In this document: positions 760-51,614 of the stretch, piece after piece | How positions within the stretch are numbered: position 1 is the stretch's first letter | Layout: every line of letters starts with the position of its first letter | Assembly (NCBI RefSeq): GCF_029589435.1 | Contig: NZ_JARRAG010000002.1 | Location: 2,108,001 to 2,172,000, forward strand | Length of the DNA stretch: 64,000 nt | Source: Paludisphaera mucosa | GTDB taxonomy: Bacteria > Planctomycetota > Planctomycetia > Isosphaerales > Isosphaeraceae | Direction of reading: 5' to 3' | The notes under the pieces: model-generated | Told to the model about the DNA's origin: nothing | The model's database searches: none | The model's input: only the letters and a program-made list of their open reading frames with translations | Position numbers and translations under genes: made by a program

Positions 760-968
760 CGTCCTGCGCGTTCCTCGGCTCTCGGTTCCCGACCCATCCG
801 TCCGGGCCCTTGGTTTTTGATTAGTTTAACGAGTCCCGGGTCGGTCCGCATCCACGACGTCGCACGGCCACGCCGTCGAACGGGTTTGCGGCCCTGCTAG
901 AATGACGCGAGGCCCGCCGACCCGGCTGGCGGCCCGAAGTCGCATCCCGGTTGATCGAGGAGTCGGCG

Positions 969-1922
<954 letters not shown>

Positions 1923-1950
1923 AGCCGAGACCCAACGCTTCGAATCTTCC

Positions 1951-1974
1951 CGGTGGGCGATGCCCACCCCACGG
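1951..1974. repeat. REP-like repeat unit
   Basis: One copy of the short G+C-rich palindromic unit that recurs between 1.95 and 7.06 kb (core GGTGGGCG...CGCCCACC followed by ACGGG). This copy reads CGGTGGGCGATGCCCACCCC and can fold on itself. It lies 28 bases after the aldo/keto reductase stop. Confidence 0.6.
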
Positions 1975-2000
1975 GTCTTCGAGGAAGCCTTGCACCCTCA

Positions 2001-2163
2001 TAGGGTGGGCGCCGTCCGCCACTTCGAGGCCGCTGAATGGAAGGAGCATGTCGCCCGACGATCGTCGCGGACGGCTTCCGAACGCCGGCCTTGATCATGG
2101 GCGTCGGGTCCGATGAGATGGCCTGAGGATGACGCCGGTGGGCGGTGCCCGCCCTACGGGACT
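2001..2163 (+). mobile_element. Miniature derivative of the RAYT element (internal deletion)
   Basis: The left part (TAGGGTGGGCGCC, then GAGGCCGCTGAATGG at about 2026-2040, then an ATG at 2048) matches the left end of the RAYT element at 3797-3847. The right part (CGAACGCCGGCCTTGA, GGGCGTCGGG, CCGATGA, then GGTGGGCGGTGCCCGCCCTA) matches the right end at about 4365-4450. The transposase body between them is missing, leaving a roughly 22-codon remnant frame. This is the structure of a non-autonomous, MITE-like derivative. Gene content: none. Confidence 0.65.
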
Positions 2164-2387
2164 CGCCGCCTGATAACGGCAGCTCGATCCATCACGACTC
2201 CCCGCAGAACCACATTGAGTGGGACACCGGCTGGAAGGCAGGGGGGGCTGGGCGATTGAGCGGGTGCGAAAGTCAGGCAAACTCTCGACTGGAAACTGCG
2301 AGGTTGATTCGCAGCGATAATCTTCGACCTCACCGCACGAAGCCTCCTTTCGTGTGGAGCGTCCTCGAAGTTTCACGGAGCTGGTAA
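2161..2387. other. Leader region of the esterase-like gene with two small hairpins
   Basis: No gene is visible. Two small perfect inverted repeats lie upstream of the esterase-like gene: CTGCGA (2296-2301)/TCGCAG (2309-2314) and CACGAA (2336-2341)/TTCGTG (2349-2354). A good sigma-70 promoter was not found. The composition is less G+C-rich than the neighbouring genes. Confidence 0.35.
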
Positions 2388-3677
2388 ATGGATCTCAGGG
2401 CGTTCGTCGAAGCCGTTGCATGTCCGAGCGTGGGTCGCCGGGCTGCCGGTTTGCTGCTCCTCACCGCCGTCGCGGCGTTCGTGCTGGCGGCCGCTTCCAC
2501 GGGTGCAGCCTGGGCTTCCGAGGGATTCCAGGAAGCCGAACCGAGTCGACCGGCGTCGGTGCAGCCCGCACCGCTGCGGAGCATCGAGCCCGGGGGCGAT
2601 CGTGCCGACTTCGCCCCGCTCCGCTCGATCATCGGCGACGCCCGCATCGTAGCCCTCGGCGAGTCGACGCTCGGGGCCCACGAGCCGCTAGCCTTCCGCA
2701 ACCGGCTGTTCGAGCACCTGGTCGAGGATCTCGACTTCACCGCGATCGCGGTGGAGTCCGCGTTCCCGGAATCTCGACGATTGGCCGAGTACATCGCAGG
2801 CGGGCCGGGGGCCGAACAGGAAATCCTCGCCGACCTCCGCACGTGGTGGCACGAGCCGCTCGAAGAAAACCTGCAGCTCGTCCGGTGGATGCGGGACTAC
2901 AACGCGCGACCTGGTAAGAAACGCCCGGTCCGGTTCTACGCGATCGACCTGAGCTACACCGGCCCGTGGGGCTCTCGGCCGACCGCGACGCCTATTGAGG
3001 CTGCCCTCGCCTACCTGAGCCGCGTGGACGTCGAATCAGGTCACAAGCTCGGGGTCGCCTTCGAGCCGTGGATACGCCGCCTCGCCGACCCCCTGGCCCC
3101 TTGGACGGATCAGGAGCACGACGCCTTCACGGCGACGATCGACGATCTCGTCGCGCTTCTGGAACGCGAACGCGTCGCGTATTTGGCCGCGGCCTCGGCG
3201 GCCGACCACGAGTGGGCCCACCGGTCCGCCGTCGTGGCGAGGCAGGCGGATCGCATGTTCCGCGTGGCTCCAGCCGCCCCGCCCAACGGGCCCGTACCGC
3301 GCGACGCTTGGCGGATGGTCGACGCGCGGGATTCGGCGATGGCCGAGAACGTCCTCTGGGCGCTCGGTCAGGAAGGGCCGGAGGGGCGGGTCCTCGTGGT
3401 AACCCATAAAGTGCACGCACAGGCCGCGGCGACCGCTGGCGGCCCATGGGATGCCTACGAGCGGATGCCGGCCTCCATGGGGCGGCATCTTCGCGCATCT
3501 TTGGGCGAACGCTTCGCCGTCGTTGGGATGCAAGAGGAGGATGGCCCGTCGACGGTGCCACGACCTTTCCTGCTGGATCTTCGGGAGGGCGAAGCGGCCC
3601 GGCGGAGGTCGTCATTCGACTCCCAGTTGGTGATCGACCCGTCGACCCCCGCTCGGCCCGTCAAGTCCCGCCCATGA
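2388..3677 (+). CDS. Erythromycin esterase-family protein, exported, with a catalytic His replaced
   Basis: A 429-residue protein with an N-terminal hydrophobic segment (about residues 20-42, ending ...AWASEG) that looks like a signal peptide or anchor. The body matches the erythromycin esterase family (PF05139): ALGEST, the AFRNRL arginine, AVESAFPES, and VTHKVHAQ near the C-terminus. In characterised Ere enzymes the first motif reads GESTH or GEATH, and that His acts as the general base. Here the codon is CTC and the motif reads GESTLGAHE. Macrolide hydrolysis is therefore doubtful. Many environmental members have no known substrate. The gene sits alone between repeat elements. Confidence 0.8.
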   Translation: MDLRAFVEAVACPSVGRRAAGLLLLTAVAAFVLAAASTGAAWASEGFQEAEPSRPASVQPAPLRSIEPGGDRADFAPLRSIIGDARIVALGESTLGAHEPLAFRNRLFEHLVEDLDFTAIAVESAFPESRRLAEYIAGGPGAEQEILADLRTWWHEPLEENLQLVRWMRDYNARPGKKRPVRFYAIDLSYTGPWGSRPTATPIEAALAYLSRVDVESGHKLGVAFEPWIRRLADPLAPWTDQEHDAFTATIDDLVALLERERVAYLAAASAADHEWAHRSAVVARQADRMFRVAPAAPPNGPVPRDAWRMVDARDSAMAENVLWALGQEGPEGRVLVVTHKVHAQAAATAGGPWDAYERMPASMGRHLRASLGERFAVVGMQEEDGPSTVPRPFLLDLREGEAARRRSSFDSQLVIDPSTPARPVKSRP

Positions 3678-3844
3678 TGCCGGGCCGACGCTCCCTGCGA
3701 GGCCCGTCGGCGGACTCAAAACAAGGTCCCACCCCATGAAAAACAAACCGACCTGCCCGCTGTGATCCACCCGCATGGAACGCCGCAAAGCCTTGCAGGG
3801 TGGGCGTCGCCCACCTCGTCAAGGCCGCTGAATGGGGGGCGCAC

Positions 3845-4422
3845 ATGCCCCAACCGCCGTCGCGCGTACGTCCCTGGGGGCATCGTCTTCTTGACGCTCG
3901 TCACCTACCGTCGCGCACCGATCCTCGACGGGCCGGAGAATGTTGCGAGGTTGCGGCGGGCGCTCGGGCAGGTGATGTGCGAGGCCCCCTTCCGCATCCC
4001 TGCGGCGGTCGTCCTCCCGGACCACGCGCATTTCCTCTGGTCGCTGCCCCGGGGGTGAAGCGGACTGCTCACGGCGCGTCGGCCGGATGAAGGTGCTTTT
4101 CCCCGCTCGCTCCCGGGGCGTGACGTGGCGAGCTTCGACGTCAGCCGGTCGCGGCGCCGGCACCCCGAGAGCGACGCCTTGCAGCGCCAATTTTTGGGAG
4201 CACAACGTCGAAAGCGAGGACGAGTTTGAAGGCCTGGTGGATTACATCCATGACGACCCGGTGCGACACGGCCTGACTTCGTGTCCGCACCTCCAGCCTT
4301 CTTCAAACCTCGATCGATGGTTCCGCGCCGGGCTGTATCCTGCACGTTGGGGCTGTTGTTGCGACGGCCGAACGCCGGCCTTGAACTTGGGCGTCGGGGC
4401 CGATGAAAGCGCCGGAGAATGA
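3845..4422 (+). pseudogene. REP-associated tyrosine transposase (RAYT, Y1_Tnp/HUH), frameshifted
   Basis: Pieces of one protein are spread over several frames. The first reads RRRAYVPGGIVFLTLVTYRR and continues to the HUH motif LPDHAHFLW, ending at a stop at 4056. The second (about 4057-4190) contains ADCSRRVGRMKVLF and then, in another frame, SRRRHPESDALQRQF. The third (from about 4191) reads FWEHNVES...YIHDDPVRHGL, which carries the position of the catalytic Tyr, and ends RAGLYPARWGC. At least four indels are needed to restore one frame, including an extra C in the run after ATGCCCC and an extra T in the TTTTT run near 4191. Intact family members are about 150-190 residues. No active transposase can be made. 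Confidence 0.85.
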
Positions 4423-4424
4423 CA

Positions 4425-4450
4425 CCGGTGGGCGGTGCCGACCCTACGGG
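4425..4450. repeat. REP-like repeat at the right end of the RAYT element
   Basis: CCGGTGGGCGGTGCCGACCC then TACGGG. It is nearly identical to the copy at 2135-2160 and ends three bases before the stop codon of the convergent hypothetical gene at 4454, so it may also act as that gene's 3' hairpin. Confidence 0.65.
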
Positions 4451-4453
4451 ACT

Positions 4454-5293
4454 TCAGGACCAGGGTCCACCCTGACGGCGGGCCGGGATACCGCCCATGA
4501 TGACGCCCGCACCAGCTGGAGACATGCTCTTGTGCAGGGCACCGACCGCACCGTTCAGGCGGCCGCACAGAGCGTCGACGTCCCAGTGCGAGAAGGCCAG
4601 GCTGGCGCCCCAGAGGTAATTCTTCGGCGTGTCCATGGTGGCGCCACCCCCGAACTTGGCCGTGAAAACGAGGCTCCCGGGATCGAGACGACAATCATAG
4701 GAACCGATGTTGGTGTAGTTCTCGGACCAGGACTTCAAATTCGTCATCAGCATCTCTGTGAGCACCCGCAGCCGGATCGGGTCGATCGCCCCGTCGGGGG
4801 CGGAGATGCGTGCGGCCTTCTGCTTCTGGTATTCCGCCTGCCGGGCCGGGATTGTGTTCACATTCGTGCCGGGCATGTTGGCCGTTGACCTGCCGATCAG
4901 GAAGGGACCCATACTCAAGATCATTCCTTCAAGCTCCCAACCCTCGTCCTCGATCCACCTGGCCCGATCGCCCAGGGATACAGTCTGCCCCACGAGAGTG
5001 CTCCCTGGCGCCGCCGACTGGTACTTGCCGTCCACAAGCAGATTCACGCTCCGGACCACGGTGTCGGACCACGGGTTGACCTGGAGGTTCCGCAAGTCCA
5101 CGGGGTTGGAGAGACGGATGATCCGGTCGAACGGACGCTCGCGGAACGCGTGCGTCGCGGGGAGGCCCCCCGACTTCTGGCCGTAAACGCCGTACGGGTC
5201 GGTGGGCGACGCAGCGGAGGAGTCCATCCCCACCGCCAGACGAGCCTGGAATGAGCCGGCGAACGCGATGTCGAGTTGCGAGATCTTGCCCAT
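4454..5293 (-). CDS. Hypothetical protein, unrecognised family
   Basis: A 279-residue protein starting MGKISQLDIAFAGSFQ. The ATG at 5293 was chosen for the TTGGAG element 8-13 bases upstream; the frame stays open further upstream but without a better start. There is no signal peptide, membrane segment or recognisable catalytic motif. The middle has several Asp/Arg-rich strands and a short Lys/Gln-rich helix (QAEYQKQKAA). The last residues (...GGIPARRQGGPWS) are encoded right up to the REP-like repeat of the RAYT element, so the original C-terminus may have been altered by insertion. Function unknown. Confidence 0.6.
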   Translation of the reverse strand: MGKISQLDIAFAGSFQARLAVGMDSSAASPTDPYGVYGQKSGGLPATHAFRERPFDRIIRLSNPVDLRNLQVNPWSDTVVRSVNLLVDGKYQSAAPGSTLVGQTVSLGDRARWIEDEGWELEGMILSMGPFLIGRSTANMPGTNVNTIPARQAEYQKQKAARISAPDGAIDPIRLRVLTEMLMTNLKSWSENYTNIGSYDCRLDPGSLVFTAKFGGGATMDTPKNYLWGASLAFSHWDVDALCGRLNGAVGALHKSMSPAGAGVIMGGIPARRQGGPWS

Positions 5294-5570
5294 GGCGGGG
5301 GCTCCAATTTCGGTGTCAGTCCCTCCCCAGGACGATTTGACTCGCGGCCCATTCCCTTGTCCACGAAAATCGATAATGCGGCACACATGATTGTTTGTAA
5401 GGGGCAACCGTGGGACGGCCTTGGCGAGTCGGGACTTCCGGGCGCGATACCCTTCGCCCTCGTGCCTTGTACGGTGGACGCCGCCTACCCACTACGGCTC
5501 ACTGACGAAGACCTGCTTCCGGGGTAACATGGGCGTTGAAGGTTTCCAATCCGCCCCTTGGAGCGACGTC

Positions 5571-6596
5571 ATGCGAACGTTTTCAGCCGCCGCCGCCGTC
5601 GGCCTGATCGGCTGCGTGTCCACGGTCCTGTCCCAGGCGCAGGAGCCCGTGCGGGTCACGGTCGACAACTTCCGCCGCGCCGAGTCCGACTCCTATTTCG
5701 GGCGATTCGTCAAGGATGGCGGATTCGGGAAGTTCCACCACGAGCGGGAACTCGCGGCGATCGACCATCAGACGGTGATCCGCCTGAATCGCGACACCCT
5801 CTACTCGTTCGGCGTCTTCGACCTCGACGCCGCGCCGGTCACCATCACGCTCCCGGACGCGGGAAAGCGGTACATGGCGATGCAGGTCATCAACGAGGAC
5901 CACTACGCCACGGATGTCTTCTACGCACCCGGGACGCACACGCTCACGAGCGACCAAGCGGGCACGCGGTACGTCGCCCTGGCCATCCGTACATTCGTGA
6001 ACCCGAACGACCAGGCGGATGTGAGACAAGTCCACGCCCTGCAAGACGGCATCAAGGTCGAGCAGGAGTCGTCGGGCAAGTTCGAGGTGACCGAATGGGA
6101 CCAGGCGTCGCTGAAGCAGATCCGCGAGGCCCTGCTCGCGGTGGTGACCGCCAACGGCGGACTGGAATCGACGAAGATGTTCGGTCGGAAGGGCGAGGTC
6201 GACCCGGTCCAGCACCTCCTGGGCACGGCCGCCGGCTGGGGCGGGAACCCGCGTTACGCCGCGCTCTATGCGGGGGCTTCCCCCAGGGAGAACGACGGCA
6301 AGACGGCATACCGAATGACCGTGAAGGACGTGCCGGTGGACGGGTTCTGGTCGGTGAGCGTGTACGACGAGGGCGGCTATTTCGAGAAGAACCCGGAGAA
6401 CGCCTACACCGTGAACGACGTCACCGCCAGGCCGAACGCGGACGGCTCGGTGACGATCCATTTCGGGGGTGACAGGACGGCCCCGAACTACCTGCCCATC
6501 ACTCCCGGATGGAACTATCTGCTCAGGATGTACCGCCCTCGAAAGGAGATCCTCGACGGCGCCTGGAAGCTCCCCGAAGCGGAACCGGTGAGGTAG
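5571..6596 (+). CDS. DUF1254/DUF1214 domain-containing exported protein
   Basis: A 341-residue secreted protein. The ATG at 5571 has GGAG seven bases upstream; the frame is open further upstream but lacks a ribosome binding site. Residues 1-24 (MRTFSAAAAVGLIGCVSTV...QAQ) form a signal peptide with a possible Cys at 15. The N-terminal half holds a DUF1254-like part (DHQTVIRLNRDTLYSFGVFD, then KRYMAMQVINEDHY). The C-terminal half is DUF1214 (DGFWSVSVYD, NAYTVND, PNYLPITPGWNYLLRMYRP). The family is common in soil bacteria and has no settled biochemical role. The gene is followed directly by a degenerate REP pair. Confidence 0.85.
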   Translation: MRTFSAAAAVGLIGCVSTVLSQAQEPVRVTVDNFRRAESDSYFGRFVKDGGFGKFHHERELAAIDHQTVIRLNRDTLYSFGVFDLDAAPVTITLPDAGKRYMAMQVINEDHYATDVFYAPGTHTLTSDQAGTRYVALAIRTFVNPNDQADVRQVHALQDGIKVEQESSGKFEVTEWDQASLKQIREALLAVVTANGGLESTKMFGRKGEVDPVQHLLGTAAGWGGNPRYAALYAGASPRENDGKTAYRMTVKDVPVDGFWSVSVYDEGGYFEKNPENAYTVNDVTARPNADGSVTIHFGGDRTAPNYLPITPGWNYLLRMYRPRKEILDGAWKLPEAEPVR

Positions 6597-6600
6597 CCTC

Positions 6601-6660
6601 GTGAGGCGGGCGCCGCCCACCGCCCCGCATGAAACCAATGGGCGGTTCCCAAATTACGGG
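6601..6660. repeat. Degenerate REP-like inverted pair
   Basis: GGCGGGCGCCGCCCACC (6605-6621), a short spacer containing GCATGAAACC, then ATGGGCGGTTCCCAAATTACGGG. It has the same layout as the perfect pair at 7006-7064 but with several substitutions in the right arm. It starts four bases after the upstream stop codon. Confidence 0.5.
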
Positions 6661-6722
6661 ATTTGGGTGAACACACCATTCCTGCCGAGGCTTCGCCGGC
6701 CCGCAGGCTGCGAGGCCGAAAT

Positions 6723-7001
6723 ATGAGTCAACGGACCTGGGTATGCATCTCTTGTCGCAAATCCTATCGACGGCCGCAGGACGTACCCTCGCTTCACTGT
6801 CCCACGTGCCACGCCGGGTGCGAGTCCGTTCACTGGAAGATCCGCATGCCTTCGCCAAAACACCCGAAGGCATGGGAGCGGTTCTGGGAAAAATACAGGT
6901 CGGAAAAGGCCCTTCTCGCTGCGTTCAATCGAGGCGAGTTGCGTGAGGTCGTCACCCTGGAGCTTCTCAACATGGTGCTACGACCCACTCGCCTCGCCTG
7001 A
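6723..7001 (+). CDS. Small zinc-ribbon hypothetical protein
   Basis: A 92-residue basic protein starting MSQRTWVCISC. Two Cys pairs, CISC and CPTC separated by about 18 residues, form a likely zinc ribbon in the first third. The rest is helical and ends ELLNMVLRPTRLA. The ribosome binding site is weak (CGAGG). It lies between two REP-like pairs, the second starting five bases after its stop codon. No function can be assigned; small proteins of this shape may bind nucleic acid. Confidence 0.6.
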   Translation: MSQRTWVCISCRKSYRRPQDVPSLHCPTCHAGCESVHWKIRMPSPKHPKAWERFWEKYRSEKALLAAFNRGELREVVTLELLNMVLRPTRLA

Positions 7002-7005
7002 GCCC

Positions 7006-7064
7006 CGTAGGGTGGGCGCCGCCCTCCGAATCGAATGAAACCGGTGGGCGGCGCCCACCCTACG
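7006..7064. repeat. Perfect REP inverted pair (REPIN-like hairpin)
   Basis: The left arm CGTAGGGTGGGCGCCGCCC (7006-7024) and right arm GGGCGGCGCCCACCCTACG (7046-7064) are perfect 19-base reverse complements around a 21-base loop. Two REP units facing each other at short distance are the form known as a REPIN. It lies between two convergent genes and would form a very stable hairpin in either transcript. Confidence 0.8.
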
Positions 7065-7083
7065 AGAAGCCATCGAGGCCGGT

Positions 7084-8265
7084 TCACGCGGCGTTGGTCA
7101 GCCAGCGCTTGATGCGGCCGACCTCGTCGGCCCAGGAGTTGGCGGTCTTGCGGGCGCGGTAGGCGTCGAAGAGGAGGTCGAGGGTCTCGGCGAAGTGCCG
7201 CAGGCCGTCGATCCGCTCGCTCTTGGCCTCGTACGGGGCGAGCCGCTCCTCGGGCTTGGGGAGCAACGCGCCGGTCACGGCCAGGCTCTCGGCCTGGATC
7301 GTGAACTCGTACTGGGCCCCGTGGCGGACGACGATCAGGCCGGCCTTGCGCGGCAGCTTGCCGGACTGCAGGGCGCGGAAGGCCTCGGGGAGGCGGGTCG
7401 GCGAGTCGTCGGTCAGGCTGTCGCGGCCGGTCTCGCCGCGGGGGCAGTCGAGGGTCAGGGTCTTGGCGAGCATCACGGCGACGTCCGAGCCGTCGGCCAG
7501 GGGGATGGTGTCGCTCTCGTTCTGGAGCTGGTGCCAGAGCCAGACCAGGAACTCGTTGCCCAGGTGGTCGAGCATGTTGGGGGCCTTCTCGGCCCAGGCG
7601 ACCGTCGAGAGGGCGTCGCCGCTGTCGCCGCCGTAGAGGTTCAGCGACCCTTCGCCCAGCTTCTGGGCGACCCGGTCGGACTCGGCGAGCGAGTCCGAGG
7701 TCCCCATCGCCAGGGATCCGGCCGTGATCGGCTCCAGGGGACGCTCGAACGTCTCGCGGAAGAGCGCCGTGGCCCGCTCGACGACGTTCGAGCTGGTCGA
7801 CCCGACGTAGAGGATGCCGCCGCGGCCGTCCCACAGGACCGGGTAGTGGTTGCAGCGGCGGAACCGGCCGTCGGCGGCCTCGGACTCGGCGCGGGCCTTG
7901 GCGGCCTCCTTCGCCTCGGTGCGCTGGGCCTTGGTCGGCGTCCCGCTGGGGTTCATCGCGGCGCGGGCGTCCAGCTCGATCTGGGTGTAGGCGCGGAGCA
8001 AGGTGCCGGGGATCTTGTCGGTGTCGACGCGGATCGAGGCGTGGAGCGCGTCGTTGATGAGATTCTTGGCGAGGTCGAAGTTGACGTCCAGGACGTGGCC
8101 GCCGCCGGCCCAGCCGGTGCTGACCCCGTCGGTCGGCTCGGCGGGGCTGTGCTGGCCGATCCTGTGGCTTTCCAGCTGGCCCAGCGTCTCCTCCGAGAAC
8201 GGCAGCGGAGAGTGGCCGCCGACGCGGAAGCGGGTGAAGGTCATACGTCCGTTCAGGAAGCCCAT
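7084..8265 (-). CDS. RdgC-like protein (recombination-associated)
   Basis: A 393-residue cytosolic protein. The start at 8265 has an excellent ribosome binding site (CGAGGAGG). The order of elements resembles RdgC: MGFLNGRMTFTRF, a GWAGGG loop, a strand followed by a long Lys/Glu-rich helix (TKAQRTEAKEAAKARAES), RRCNHYPVLWD, then LYVGSTSSNVVERATALFRETF. In RdgC these segments build a ring that encircles DNA and modulates RecA. The protein is about 90 residues longer than E. coli RdgC, and the identity is distant, so the name is an inference. It lies downstream of yajQ on the same strand, 158 bases away. Confidence 0.55.
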   Translation of the reverse strand: MGFLNGRMTFTRFRVGGHSPLPFSEETLGQLESHRIGQHSPAEPTDGVSTGWAGGGHVLDVNFDLAKNLINDALHASIRVDTDKIPGTLLRAYTQIELDARAAMNPSGTPTKAQRTEAKEAAKARAESEAADGRFRRCNHYPVLWDGRGGILYVGSTSSNVVERATALFRETFERPLEPITAGSLAMGTSDSLAESDRVAQKLGEGSLNLYGGDSGDALSTVAWAEKAPNMLDHLGNEFLVWLWHQLQNESDTIPLADGSDVAVMLAKTLTLDCPRGETGRDSLTDDSPTRLPEAFRALQSGKLPRKAGLIVVRHGAQYEFTIQAESLAVTGALLPKPEERLAPYEAKSERIDGLRHFAETLDLLFDAYRARKTANSWADEVGRIKRWLTNAA

Positions 8266-8423: not shown

Positions 8424-8921
8424 TCAGGTGAAGTTGACGAACTGGAGAGGATACTTCGGCCCGTTCTCCTTAAGGTGGGCGATCACCGCCTGGAGGTCGT
8501 CGACCTTCTTGCCCGTGATCCGGACCTTGTCGTCCATGATCTGGGCCTGCACCTTCACCTTGAGCTGCTTGACGTCCTTGACGATCTTGCGGGCGTCGTC
8601 GGACTCGATCCCCGAGTGGATCGTCATGGTCTCGCGGACCGAGTCGTGCGTCGCCTCTTCGAGCTTGCCCCGGACCACGGCGTTCACCGGCACCCCGCGC
8701 TTGGCCATCTTCTCCTTGAGGACCTGGAGCACGGTCTCCAACTGGCCCTTGTGGTCGCCCGTCAGGGTCAGCGTGTTGTCCTTCTTGTTGTACTCGATCG
8801 CAGCCTTGGTCCCCTTGAAGTCGTAGCGCACGGTGCACTCGTGCTGGGCCTGGGTGACGGCGTTGTGCATCTCGACCTGGTTGATCTCGCTGACCACGTC
8901 GAACGAATGGTTGTCGGCCAC
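8424..8921 (-). CDS. yajQ: YajQ family cyclic-di-GMP-binding protein
   Basis: A 165-residue protein matching YajQ over its whole length: N-terminal SFDVVSEINQVEMHNAV, then TVRYDFKGTKAAIE, and the C-terminal KVRITGKKVDDLQAVIAHL and PLQFVNF. The two ferredoxin-like halves resemble RNA-binding folds. Family members bind nucleotides, and in Xanthomonas a homologue binds cyclic-di-GMP and acts with a transcription factor. A cyclic-di-GMP link is plausible here because an HD-GYP phosphodiesterase-type gene lies in the same window, but that is only circumstantial. Confidence 0.95.
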   Translation of the reverse strand: MADNHSFDVVSEINQVEMHNAVTQAQHECTVRYDFKGTKAAIEYNKKDNTLTLTGDHKGQLETVLQVLKEKMAKRGVPVNAVVRGKLEEATHDSVRETMTIHSGIESDDARKIVKDVKQLKVKVQAQIMDDKVRITGKKVDDLQAVIAHLKENGPKYPLQFVNFT

Positions 8922-49406: not shown

Positions 49407-50423
49407 TCAGTAAGAGTCGCCGCCGACGACCTCGCCCGAGGCGATGGTCCCGAGGGCGCGCCAGGTCTCGCCGTTCACGGCGTCCCTGATGAATCGGACG
49501 CTGCCGTCGCCGAAGAGGCCCTCGACGCCTCCCGGATGGTAGCTGCGGGCGGTGACCGCCGAATAGGTGGGGCCCCCCTTCTTCTCGCGCTGGCCGACCA
49601 GGTCGAGATCGGGCCGAGGCGAGGCCGAGTAGCCGGGCGTGCGGAAGTTCGGAGGCCATGCGGTCGTGACGCCGGTCTGGTGCGACTGGCCGTCGCTCCA
49701 CTCGGTGTGACCGCGGTTGAGCTGGCACGAGCCGCCGGCGTACTCGGGGGCCACGGTCATGGGGGCGGCGTTCGGGGGCGGGATCGAGTCGGGCCGGTTG
49801 ATGTTCGCCAGGCCTCCGCAGTCGCGGAGGAGCGGTTGCTTGGCCTTGCCCTCCGAAGCGATGAGCGTCTGGCTGAGGCCGTCGCGGAACTCGGCCAGCC
49901 GCCGGCTCGCGTTGGGACCGAAAGCCGATCGGTTGACGGGTCCCGTGAATCCCCCCCAGACCAGCCAGTCTCCCATCACGAACCCGTACGTCCCGACGAC
50001 CCCCGATTCCCCGGGGACCGGCGACGAGTCGACCTCGCTCGGGCAGATGAACATGTCGACCCGCTGGGTCGAGACGGTCAGGTTGACGGCCGATTCGCCC
50101 GAGAAATCGAAGTTGATGGCGTTGTACATCGCCCCCTGCTCCAGCAAGGGGAGGATCCGTCCCTGGACGCTCCAGCCGAGCCACATCGCGACCGTGGAGC
50201 CCGACCCTCGAAGGACGCAGGTGGGCGGGAATGCGCCCGCGATGCTCTCGTAGTTGTGGACCCCCAGCCCCAACTGCTTCAGGTTGTTCGTGCATTGCAT
50301 CCTCCGAGCCGCCTCGCGGGCGGCCTGGACGGCCGGCAGCAGGAGCGCGATCAGGACCGCGATGATGGCGATCACCACCAGCAGCTCGATCAGCGTGAAG
50401 CCGCGATTGATGGGGCGTTTCAT
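49407..50423 (-). CDS. DUF1559 pseudopilin-like protein
   Basis: A 338-residue protein. It begins MKRPINRGFTLIELLVVIAI, a type IV pilin/type II secretion N-terminus with prepilin peptidase site (G before FTLIE) and a hydrophobic helix to about residue 30. QAAREAARRMQCTNNLKQLG and YHPGGVEGLFGDGSVRFI are hallmark segments of the DUF1559 family, which is hugely expanded in Planctomycetes. Function of the family is not established; a pseudopilus or matrix component is likely. The gene is divergent from the DedA gene. Confidence 0.95.
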   Translation of the reverse strand: MKRPINRGFTLIELLVVIAIIAVLIALLLPAVQAAREAARRMQCTNNLKQLGLGVHNYESIAGAFPPTCVLRGSGSTVAMWLGWSVQGRILPLLEQGAMYNAINFDFSGESAVNLTVSTQRVDMFICPSEVDSSPVPGESGVVGTYGFVMGDWLVWGGFTGPVNRSAFGPNASRRLAEFRDGLSQTLIASEGKAKQPLLRDCGGLANINRPDSIPPPNAAPMTVAPEYAGGSCQLNRGHTEWSDGQSHQTGVTTAWPPNFRTPGYSASPRPDLDLVGQREKKGGPTYSAVTARSYHPGGVEGLFGDGSVRFIRDAVNGETWRALGTIASGEVVGGDSY

Positions 50424-50777
50424 GGGGCGGGTCGTCCTGGCGGGATTCGGGCGTTCGGCCGGGCGGCTCGAGTTCGGCCGCAAGTATCGAGAGGCCCCCG
50501 GTGGAACGCAAATGAAACTTGCGTGTAGGCGGGTCGGCCCGTCGCCGCGGGCCCCGAGGTCGGGGCCGATCGCGTCGCCCCGGCGCTCGCGACCGACCAA
50601 CGTCGCAGGGCCACGCCCGGCAAGCAGTTCGGGGCCGTCGGGGCCGGTCGTCCGGGCGACCGCCGCCCCGGGCGCGAGGAGGGCCTCGACGCATCGGCCG
50701 CGTTGTGATACCTGTGGTTGAGGGCGAGGCGTCGACGACGCCGGAGACCGGAGCGGGTCGGAAGTCAGGAGTCGAGG
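50424..50777. other. Divergent intergenic region between the DUF1559 and DedA genes
   Basis: 354 bases without a supported gene. The only structured element is the ACGCAA-N7-TTGCGT palindrome at 50506-50524. No good promoter pair was seen. Confidence 0.4.
50506..50524. promoter_or_regulatory. Short palindrome ACGCAA-N7-TTGCGT
   Basis: A perfect six-base inverted repeat (50506-50511/50519-50524) with an ATGAAAC spacer, about 85 bases upstream of the DUF1559 start. Its size and spacing fit a dimeric repressor site, but no regulator is known. Confidence 0.3.
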
Positions 50778-51614
50778 TTGACGGAGCAGCTGATCGGACA
50801 ACTCGGGTACATCGGGATCGCCCTGATCCTGGTGCTGGGGGGCTTCGGCCTGCCGATCCCGGAGGAGGCCCCCGTCCTGCTGGCGGCGATCCTCACCCGC
50901 AACGGCAAGATGTGGGGGCCGCTGGCCTTCGCGGCGTGCATGATCGGCGTCCTGCTCGGCGACTTCCTCGTCTATCTGCTGGGATACCGATTCGGCGAGC
51001 GGGTCCTCAGCAACCGCTTCACGCGGCGGCTCTTGACGAAGCCGCGCGAGGCCCAGATCAAGGGCTACTTCCACCGCCACGGCTTCAAGATCCTGATCCT
51101 GGGCCGGTTCGCGGTCGGCTTCCGGACGGCCGCCTACCTGACGGCCGGCATCCTCAAGCTGCCCCCGCTCAAGCTCCTGGTGATCGACGTGCTCGCCGCG
51201 CTCCTGAGCACCAGCCTGATGTTCGCGCTCGGCTACCTGTTCGCCGACCAGATCGAGAAGGGGCTCCACGAGGCCCAGCAGTGGGTGGCGATCGCGATCG
51301 CGGCGGGGGTCGCGGTCTGGCTGATCCATCGCTATTACAAGGCGCACCTCCGGGCCGGCCTCCCCGTCGGCCCGCCCGTCCTCGACTCGGACGACCTCCC
51401 CCTGCCCTTCGACGACCTCCGGACGAAGCCGGATCCCGCGGACGCCGCGCGACGTGAAGCCGTCGCGACGTCGCCGCCCCCCTCCCCCCCGGCCCCTGCG
51501 GCGGACCGTGGCGAGCCGCCGGCGACGCCGACGTATCCCGCCGACCCGGCCCCGCGGCCCTCGCCGCTCGACGCCCCGCTGGAGAGCGAATCCCACCCCC
51601 TCAGCCGCGCCTGA
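50778..51614 (+). CDS. DedA-family membrane protein
   Basis: A 278-residue inner-membrane protein. The TTG at 50778 was chosen because AGGAG lies six bases upstream and it gives the usual DedA beginning (LTEQLIGQLGYIGIALI); the frame further upstream is Arg-rich and looks untranslated. Family features are GGFGLPIPEEAPVLLAA, GDFLVYLLGYRFG, and the GRFAVGFRTAAYLTAG loop. DedA proteins are thought to move lipids or couple to proton motive force. A Pro/Ala/Asp-rich tail of about 75 residues extends the normal length of about 200. Confidence 0.88.
   Translation: MTEQLIGQLGYIGIALILVLGGFGLPIPEEAPVLLAAILTRNGKMWGPLAFAACMIGVLLGDFLVYLLGYRFGERVLSNRFTRRLLTKPREAQIKGYFHRHGFKILILGRFAVGFRTAAYLTAGILKLPPLKLLVIDVLAALLSTSLMFALGYLFADQIEKGLHEAQQWVAIAIAAGVAVWLIHRYYKAHLRAGLPVGPPVLDSDDLPLPFDDLRTKPDPADAARREAVATSPPPSPPAPAADRGEPPATPTYPADPAPRPSPLDAPLESESHPLSRA

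Follow-up and report, generated by a model that had tools for sequence, protein, structure and literature searches.

REP-associated transposases (RAYTs, TnpAREP) serve as a standard example of domestication, in which a bacterial transposase is described as having turned into a host gene, as presented in the excerpts of PMC3116915, PMC8049555 and PMC8266576 available to us. In those excerpts RAYTs are described as apparently incapable of self-mobilization and as single-copy (Bertels and Rainey 2011, PMC3116915), as genes that do not copy themselves (PMC8049555), and as occurring in a single copy in most cases, mobility of tnpAREP being without evidence (PMC8266576). The initial annotation of the locus described here took the same view, that RAYTs are usually considered non-mobile. 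REPINs possibly derive from the ends of an IS200-like element and are thought to be moved by a RAYT in trans, according to the same portion of PMC3116915, and both REPtrons and TIRtrons are treated in the part of PMC3733652 at hand. Duplication of RAYTs, or their horizontal gain at new sites, was inferred in pseudomonads in the section of PMC3686654 (Nunvar 2013) that we could draw on, and provides a partial precedent for RAYT units at new sites. No report of mobile RAYT units was found in the open-access literature searched.

The window, that is the whole stretch of 64 000 nucleotides that was analyzed (G000:C2:2108001-2172000), belongs to a genome of 8.2 Mb in nine contigs, and the features discussed are collected in Table 1. 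The initial annotation had proposed that a short element at 2001-2163, here called the mini element, joins the left and right ends of a RAYT unit with the gene body gone, and alignment at both ends bears this out. On the left, window 2002-2069 aligns to 3797-3864 with 75% identity in 68 bp; on the right, 2078-2163 aligns to 4368-4453 with 87% in 86 bp. The three motifs it had named, GAGGCCGCTGAATGG at 2026-2040, CGAACGCCGGCCTTGA at 2079-2094 and CCGATGA at 2110-2116, are found in those places, the first of them being one base apart from its counterpart AAGGCCGCTGAATGG in the full unit. By eye, the REP consensus of the genus is about AAGTCnnGTAG followed by GGTGGGCnnnGCCCACC. The mini element has two inverted GTAG-tagged REPs, with ATAG as the left foot and CTAC as the right, and the 116 bp between the REP cores contain recognizable RAYT 5′ and 3′ sequence. 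The gap falls at TCGCG 2065-2069. In the full unit TCGCG lies at 3860-3864 and TTGCG at 4359-4363, and it is the ~500 bp between these near-repeats, T(C/T)GCG, that the mini element lacks. Both ends of an autonomous element are therefore retained while its body is deleted.

The similarity is not confined to the REP cores, a point on which the initial annotation had asked for a check. Outside the cores the left inner stretch of the mini element aligns to the unit with a score of 32 (best shuffle 23) and the right with a score of 74 (best shuffle 31), and 0 of 1000 dinucleotide-preserving shuffles reached the score in either case. The homology between the mini element and the full unit is limited at both ends by the outer REP feet; comparison of ~790–800 bp of the outer flanks gave a single 12-bp match, which is at chance level. 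In the predicted fold of the mini element as a single strand both REPs pair, with an energy z of –0.52 and 57 of 200 shuffles equally good. That energy is no better than the energies of shuffles and lends no support to a hairpin function of the element as a whole.

Table 1. Positions of the features in the window.
Feature	Position	Strand	Remarks
Aldo/keto reductase gene (AKR)	951..1922	+	Left neighbour, conserved; directly followed by the intact RAYT unit in G003
Mini element	1986..2164	+	Left REP, start-codon region, deletion junction, tail of RAYT reading frame, right REP; aligned to 3788-4453
Left REP of mini element	2000..2020	+	Foot ATAG (G003: GTAG), imperfect palindrome, core 2004-2020, 2 mismatches
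Deletion junction of mini element	2065..2070	+	TCGCG joined to GACGGC; read from sequence and alignments
Right REP of mini element	2137..2157	-	Inverted orientation, core 2137-2153, 1 mismatch, foot CTAC
Erythromycin-esterase-like gene	2388..3677	+	Between the two unit copies; PF05139, 133.9 bits
Partner unit	3788..4453	+	REP, broken RAYT gene, inverted REP; left core 3799-3815, right core 4427-4443
REP doublet (REPIN-like)	7011..7063	+	Right border of variable region; conserved backbone back at 7081-7084
DUF1559 / H-X9-DG-CTERM pseudopilin	49407-51596		Suggests a planctomycete

The partner had been annotated as a RAYT element at 3795-4451. It is indeed a RAYT unit, but its gene is in pieces, with an in-frame stop and frame changes. 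The RAYT model NF047646 (cut-off 80 bits) matches it in two reading frames with 63.4 and 33.1 bits; in the search of the genome the values were 68.6 and 37.4 bits with one TGA inside, and all four are below the cut-off. No further NF047646 match was found in the 8.2-Mb genome at E up to 1. For another transposase by which the unit might be moved, a search with Pfam Y1_Tnp gave one further partial match, in a 115-aa frame at G000:C2:3158865-3159047 (37.4 bits, model positions 62-121). The partner unit is 80% identical to the intact unit of a genome of the same genus (G003). The RAYT protein of the latter has 196 aa, scores 171 bits on NF047646 and carries the motifs DHAH (HUH) and YIHYNP, the second of which reads YIHDDP in the partner unit. 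Of the solved structures, only TnpAREP (4ER8, E 2.7e-30) is strongly matched by the G003 protein. Since the genome has no intact RAYT gene, neither the mini element nor its partner should now move by itself.

The locus occupies a variable region of the genus. Conserved backbone is found at 1-1927 and from 7084 in comparison with G003, and from 7081 in comparison with G001. The stretch from AKR to the gene at ~7084 (window 1923-7083) is ~230 bp long in G001, 1.8 kb in G003 and 5.2 kb in the window, and REP cores sit between most of its inserted genes. The intact unit of G003 has its GTAG foot ~60 bp past the AKR stop, and is itself followed by a further ORF and a REP doublet. In the window the distance from the AKR stop to the foot of the mini element is ~80 bp, and beyond the element are found, in this order, the erythromycin-esterase-like gene, the partner unit with its broken RAYT gene, further genes and the REP doublet. 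The stretch between AKR and the element gave no alignment between the window and G003, so that identity of the exact site is unproven. No REP or RAYT was seen in the ~230 bp between the backbone sides in G001, and neither an NF047646 match at E 1e-15 nor an exact REP core was found in the G001 genome. A match to the unit at 6.37 Mb in G001 was discarded, as it extends over 26 bp only and has no RAYT. The right backbone was not found within the stretches compared in G004, G005 and G002, which is uninformative on the site.

Several other features of the region and of the genus may be recorded. In G003 a 25-bp direct repeat with one mismatch flanks the RAYT-containing insert (L020 ~7123-7147 and 8783-8807); by eye, a similar sequence occurs once in G001. 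The best matches of the erythromycin-esterase-like gene are 30–36% identical, in five other genomes of the genus. A 112-aa ORF without Pfam or NCBIfam match (window 6663-7001) adjoins the REP doublet, and over 323 bp has 84.5% identity with L157:2253-2575, which lies ~100 bp from a RAYT unit of G044. Ordinary REP doublets occur elsewhere in the genome and in the genus, with linkers of ~15–22 bp in G000 and G003. Those of G002 (L338-L343) are longer, at 28–35 bp. By eye, the linkers of the doublets resemble the inner edges of the RAYT unit.

How did the mini element arise? The initial annotation had read it as evidence of mobility, and had suggested a search for further copies with identical ends at other loci. 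None was found in the genome: among the best 40 of 121 candidates, the DNA of the mini element matches itself and both ends of the neighbouring unit, while among the best 40 of 133 candidates that of the full unit matches itself, both halves of the mini element and two right-REP stretches of 35 and 39 bp. The mini element lies 1.7 kb from the full unit in the same orientation, and next to AKR, where G003 has an intact unit; as a single copy in such a position it is most readily explained as a remnant that formed where it now lies. Thus it does not serve as evidence of mobility, and local duplication with later deletion, the outcome that the initial annotation had itself set against its proposal, is the simplest reading. 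We consider it probable that the mini element is an inactive REP-RAYT-REP copy without its interior, which arose by local copying of the unit and internal deletion. A RAYT unit would once have stood beside AKR, as in G003, and either a hop over a short distance or recombination at the REPs would have placed a second copy ~1.7 kb from it. The copy next to AKR could then have lost the ~500 bp of gene body between the T(C/T)GCG near-repeats, replication slippage or end joining being the simplest mechanisms, with the other copy (3795-4451) decaying by frame changes. A parallel for such a remnant is provided by lone unit ends near full RAYT units in two genomes of the class (G292 and G257). That of G292 is a 175-bp left end (L327:3314-3488), and that of G257 is a REP doublet with the 3′ end of a RAYT frame (L322:720-863).

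One property of the mini element counts against an origin in place. Its homology to the full unit ends at the REP feet and the flanks are unrelated, which, as far as the alignments go, would also fit arrival by transposition. The deletion could then have happened elsewhere, and the short element been transposed here as a MITE by a RAYT protein supplied in trans. Movement of related units as wholes is suggested for other genomes, as discussed below. Yet there is no further copy in the genome among the best 40 of 121 and of 133 candidates, and the element adjoins its only partner and the very gene beside which G003 has a full unit. We regard this origin as unlikely, and the mini element as an active MITE was rejected for want of a further copy among those candidates.

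The two ends of the mini element differ in their nearest relatives. At the left end the identities are 57/88 between the mini element and the full unit, 59/89 between the mini element and G003, and 70/93 between the full unit and G003. At the right end the corresponding values are 82/112, 69/112 and 76/114. Only the right end, then, groups the mini element with the full unit of the window, and its left end is not closer to that unit than to G003. Because the two ends disagree on ancestry, a simple recent duplication fails to explain both; gene conversion may have contributed, or the divergence may be older. Such values could also have arisen if an ordinary REP doublet beside AKR had recombined, or undergone gene conversion, with one end of a RAYT unit, giving halves of different history. 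REP doublets are present in the genus, and the doublet of G257 noted above is one that carries a piece of RAYT 3′ coding end. But the left end of the mini element extends past the REP into the start-codon region of the unit, so that a plain REP doublet was not the left parent, and this chimaeric origin too seems doubtful. Finally, that the two stretches have only REP palindromes in common can be dismissed almost with certainty, for while REPs are locally frequent, with nine cores of two or fewer mismatches between 1952 and 7043, the inner stretches match as described above.

Support for whole-unit movement comes from other genomes. In the family of the window the RAYT model has matches (E 1e-15) in 36 of the 45 genomes, 120 matches when summed. 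A part of these, 95 loci from 22 genomes (one of which contributed a single locus), was compared within genomes, and five of the 22 have pairs or sets with at least 85% identity over at least 500 bp: G044, G056, G014, G043 and G011. Only in G044 are the unit ends GTAG-tagged REPs. There, two REP-RAYT-REP units of 666 bp are 96.7% identical and lie at unrelated loci with their edges at the REP feet. Their homology extends 5 bp beyond GTAG on one side and 6 bp beyond CTAC on the other, and the 800-bp flanks have only one 18-bp match in common. A third unit is ~76% similar and has no long RAYT frame. Six instances of the exact palindrome with its foot are present in G044, each of them an end of one of the three units. 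The RAYT of G044 scores 180.9 bits on NF047646, with the motifs DHLH and YVHYNP or YVHDNP.

The other four genomes have units of different kinds. In G056 (L205, L206) Y1-transposase units of ~686–687 bp are 91.6% identical in unrelated flanks, and end in other palindromes, CCCGGACAAC...GTTGTCCGGG. The units of G014, G043 and G011 have GGGGACA-type ends and resemble TIRYTs. G014 has three of 730–737 bp (L219, L220, L221), 97.8–98.6% identical with unrelated flanks; the start of a fourth TIRYT-like copy is seen at the end of L217 (L217/L336). Those of G043 (L236, L237, L238) are 94.6–96.7% identical, comprising a pair of 756 bp at 94.7% and a third cut by a contig end. The copy in L238 is bordered by sequence resembling a further unit of this kind, as though it had been inserted there. 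In G011 the similarity (512 bp, 94.9%) includes the left end only. An older pair in G009 is 78.9% identical, and its left ends start with a GTAG-tagged palindrome.

How widespread are such copies in the class? The 397 class genomes analyzed are an even draw from a larger group, and with the best nine candidates at most taken per genome the counts are lower bounds: a strong RAYT match (E 1e-45) is present in at least 90 of the 397, and two or more in at least 30. Four of these 30 multi-match genomes (G044, G040, G012 and G059) had been compared in the family set, and the other 26, with 60 loci, were compared separately. Sets of at least 85% identity over 600 bp were found in three of the 26, namely a pair of 694 bp in G105 (97.1%), three units in G292 (86.9–89.4%) and a pair of 678 bp in G257 (85.1%); those of G292 and G257 are older. 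Including G044, four of the 30 genomes with several strong matches are thus positive and the remaining 26 have no near-identical set at the 85% level, so that the published single-copy picture fits most genomes.

The G105 pair is informative about timing. The unit at 434517 corresponds to one in a genome of the same genus, G090, with 94.6% identity over 792 bp of left flank and 88.8% in the unit, the right flank not being common to the two. The second copy, at C1:3291110, is 97.1% identical to the first with no flank in common. Since the copies are closer to each other than the first is to its counterpart in G090, the copying is younger than the split of G105 and G090, unless gene conversion has occurred. 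That the copies differ at 20/694 sites in G105 and at 22/666 in G044 speaks against assembly duplicates. The G105 RAYT scores 188.9 bits on NF047646 and has the motifs DHLH and YIHANP. Two further searches may be noted. Plasmid-borne RAYT proteins (found in 22 of 72 556 records, all below 60% identity, 12 from Escherichia) are uninformative on unit mobility, and a scan of genome contigs with the G003 protein, with at least 80 loci at 42–62% identity, was of no help for copies within genomes.

The near-identical units of these relatives at unrelated loci suggest that whole units move, and that a RAYT can still move; here the initial proposal of whole-unit movement gains its support, and not from the mini element. 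Judged from sequence comparison, the type of unit to which the mini element and its partner belong is probably a true mobile element. Movement would presumably occur by HUH/Y1 single-strand cleavage at the GTAG-tagged hairpins, by analogy with IS200/IS605. Taking the observations together, we lean towards the view that the REP-RAYT-REP units of the class are autonomous single-strand transposons, each able to copy itself in full. The rule of RAYT domestication and immobility would then fail here, the units being in a pre-domestication or a re-mobilized state, and REPINs would be products of internal deletion, with 2001-2163 an example of intermediate size. The mini element is real but ordinary: it shows a unit reduced to its ends, and alone proves nothing on movement. 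Whole-unit movement in other genomes is the more interesting result, and the genomes that contain near-identical whole RAYT units bounded at the REP feet are natural test cases for a possible ability of TnpAREP to move its own gene and for the origin of REP doublets from such units.

The locus and its relatives may finally be compared with the known systems. As in a REPIN (as described in the excerpt of PMC3116915), the mini element has two inverted GTAG-type REPs around a short spacer, but this contains RAYT sequence and at 116 bp is longer than the doublet linkers of G000 and G003, and the element is a single copy and not one of a dispersed set of like copies with a short linker. Like a MITE it is an internal deletion derivative that keeps both transposon ends, and it differs in lacking a second copy in the genome, and hence several copies at non-homologous loci, among the best 40 of 121 and 40 of 133 candidates. 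The multi-copy units of G014, G043 and G011 have the GGGGACA-type ends that liken them to TIRYTs and TIRtrons (in the available parts of PMC3733652 and PMC6006769), while the unit of the window, with its GTAG-tagged REPs, is of another type. IS200/IS605 elements likewise have a Y1 HUH transposase between palindromic ends and occur at several loci; G044 and G105 have several near-identical whole copies, and the unit of the window does not. Yet on the IS200 transposase model (cut-off 55 bits) G003 scores 20 and G105 26.1 and G044 is not listed, whereas all three are far above the cut-off of the RAYT model, and the Y motif is Y---NP and not Y---Q (class motifs as given in the accessible text of PMC6006769, Quentin 2018). 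A further likeness is to the REPtron or RAYT (TnpAREP) locus, as portrayed in the portions consulted of PMC2817692, PMC3733652, PMC6006769 and PMC8266576: a Y1 HUH protein nearest to 4ER8, with its gene between inverted GTAG-tagged palindromes. G003, G044 and G105 exceed 80 bits on NF047646 and have both the HUH and the Y---NP motifs, the broken copy of the window falling below the cut-off. What sets G044 and G105 apart from the single-copy, immobile behaviour described in those portions is that whole units occur there, near-identical, at unrelated loci.
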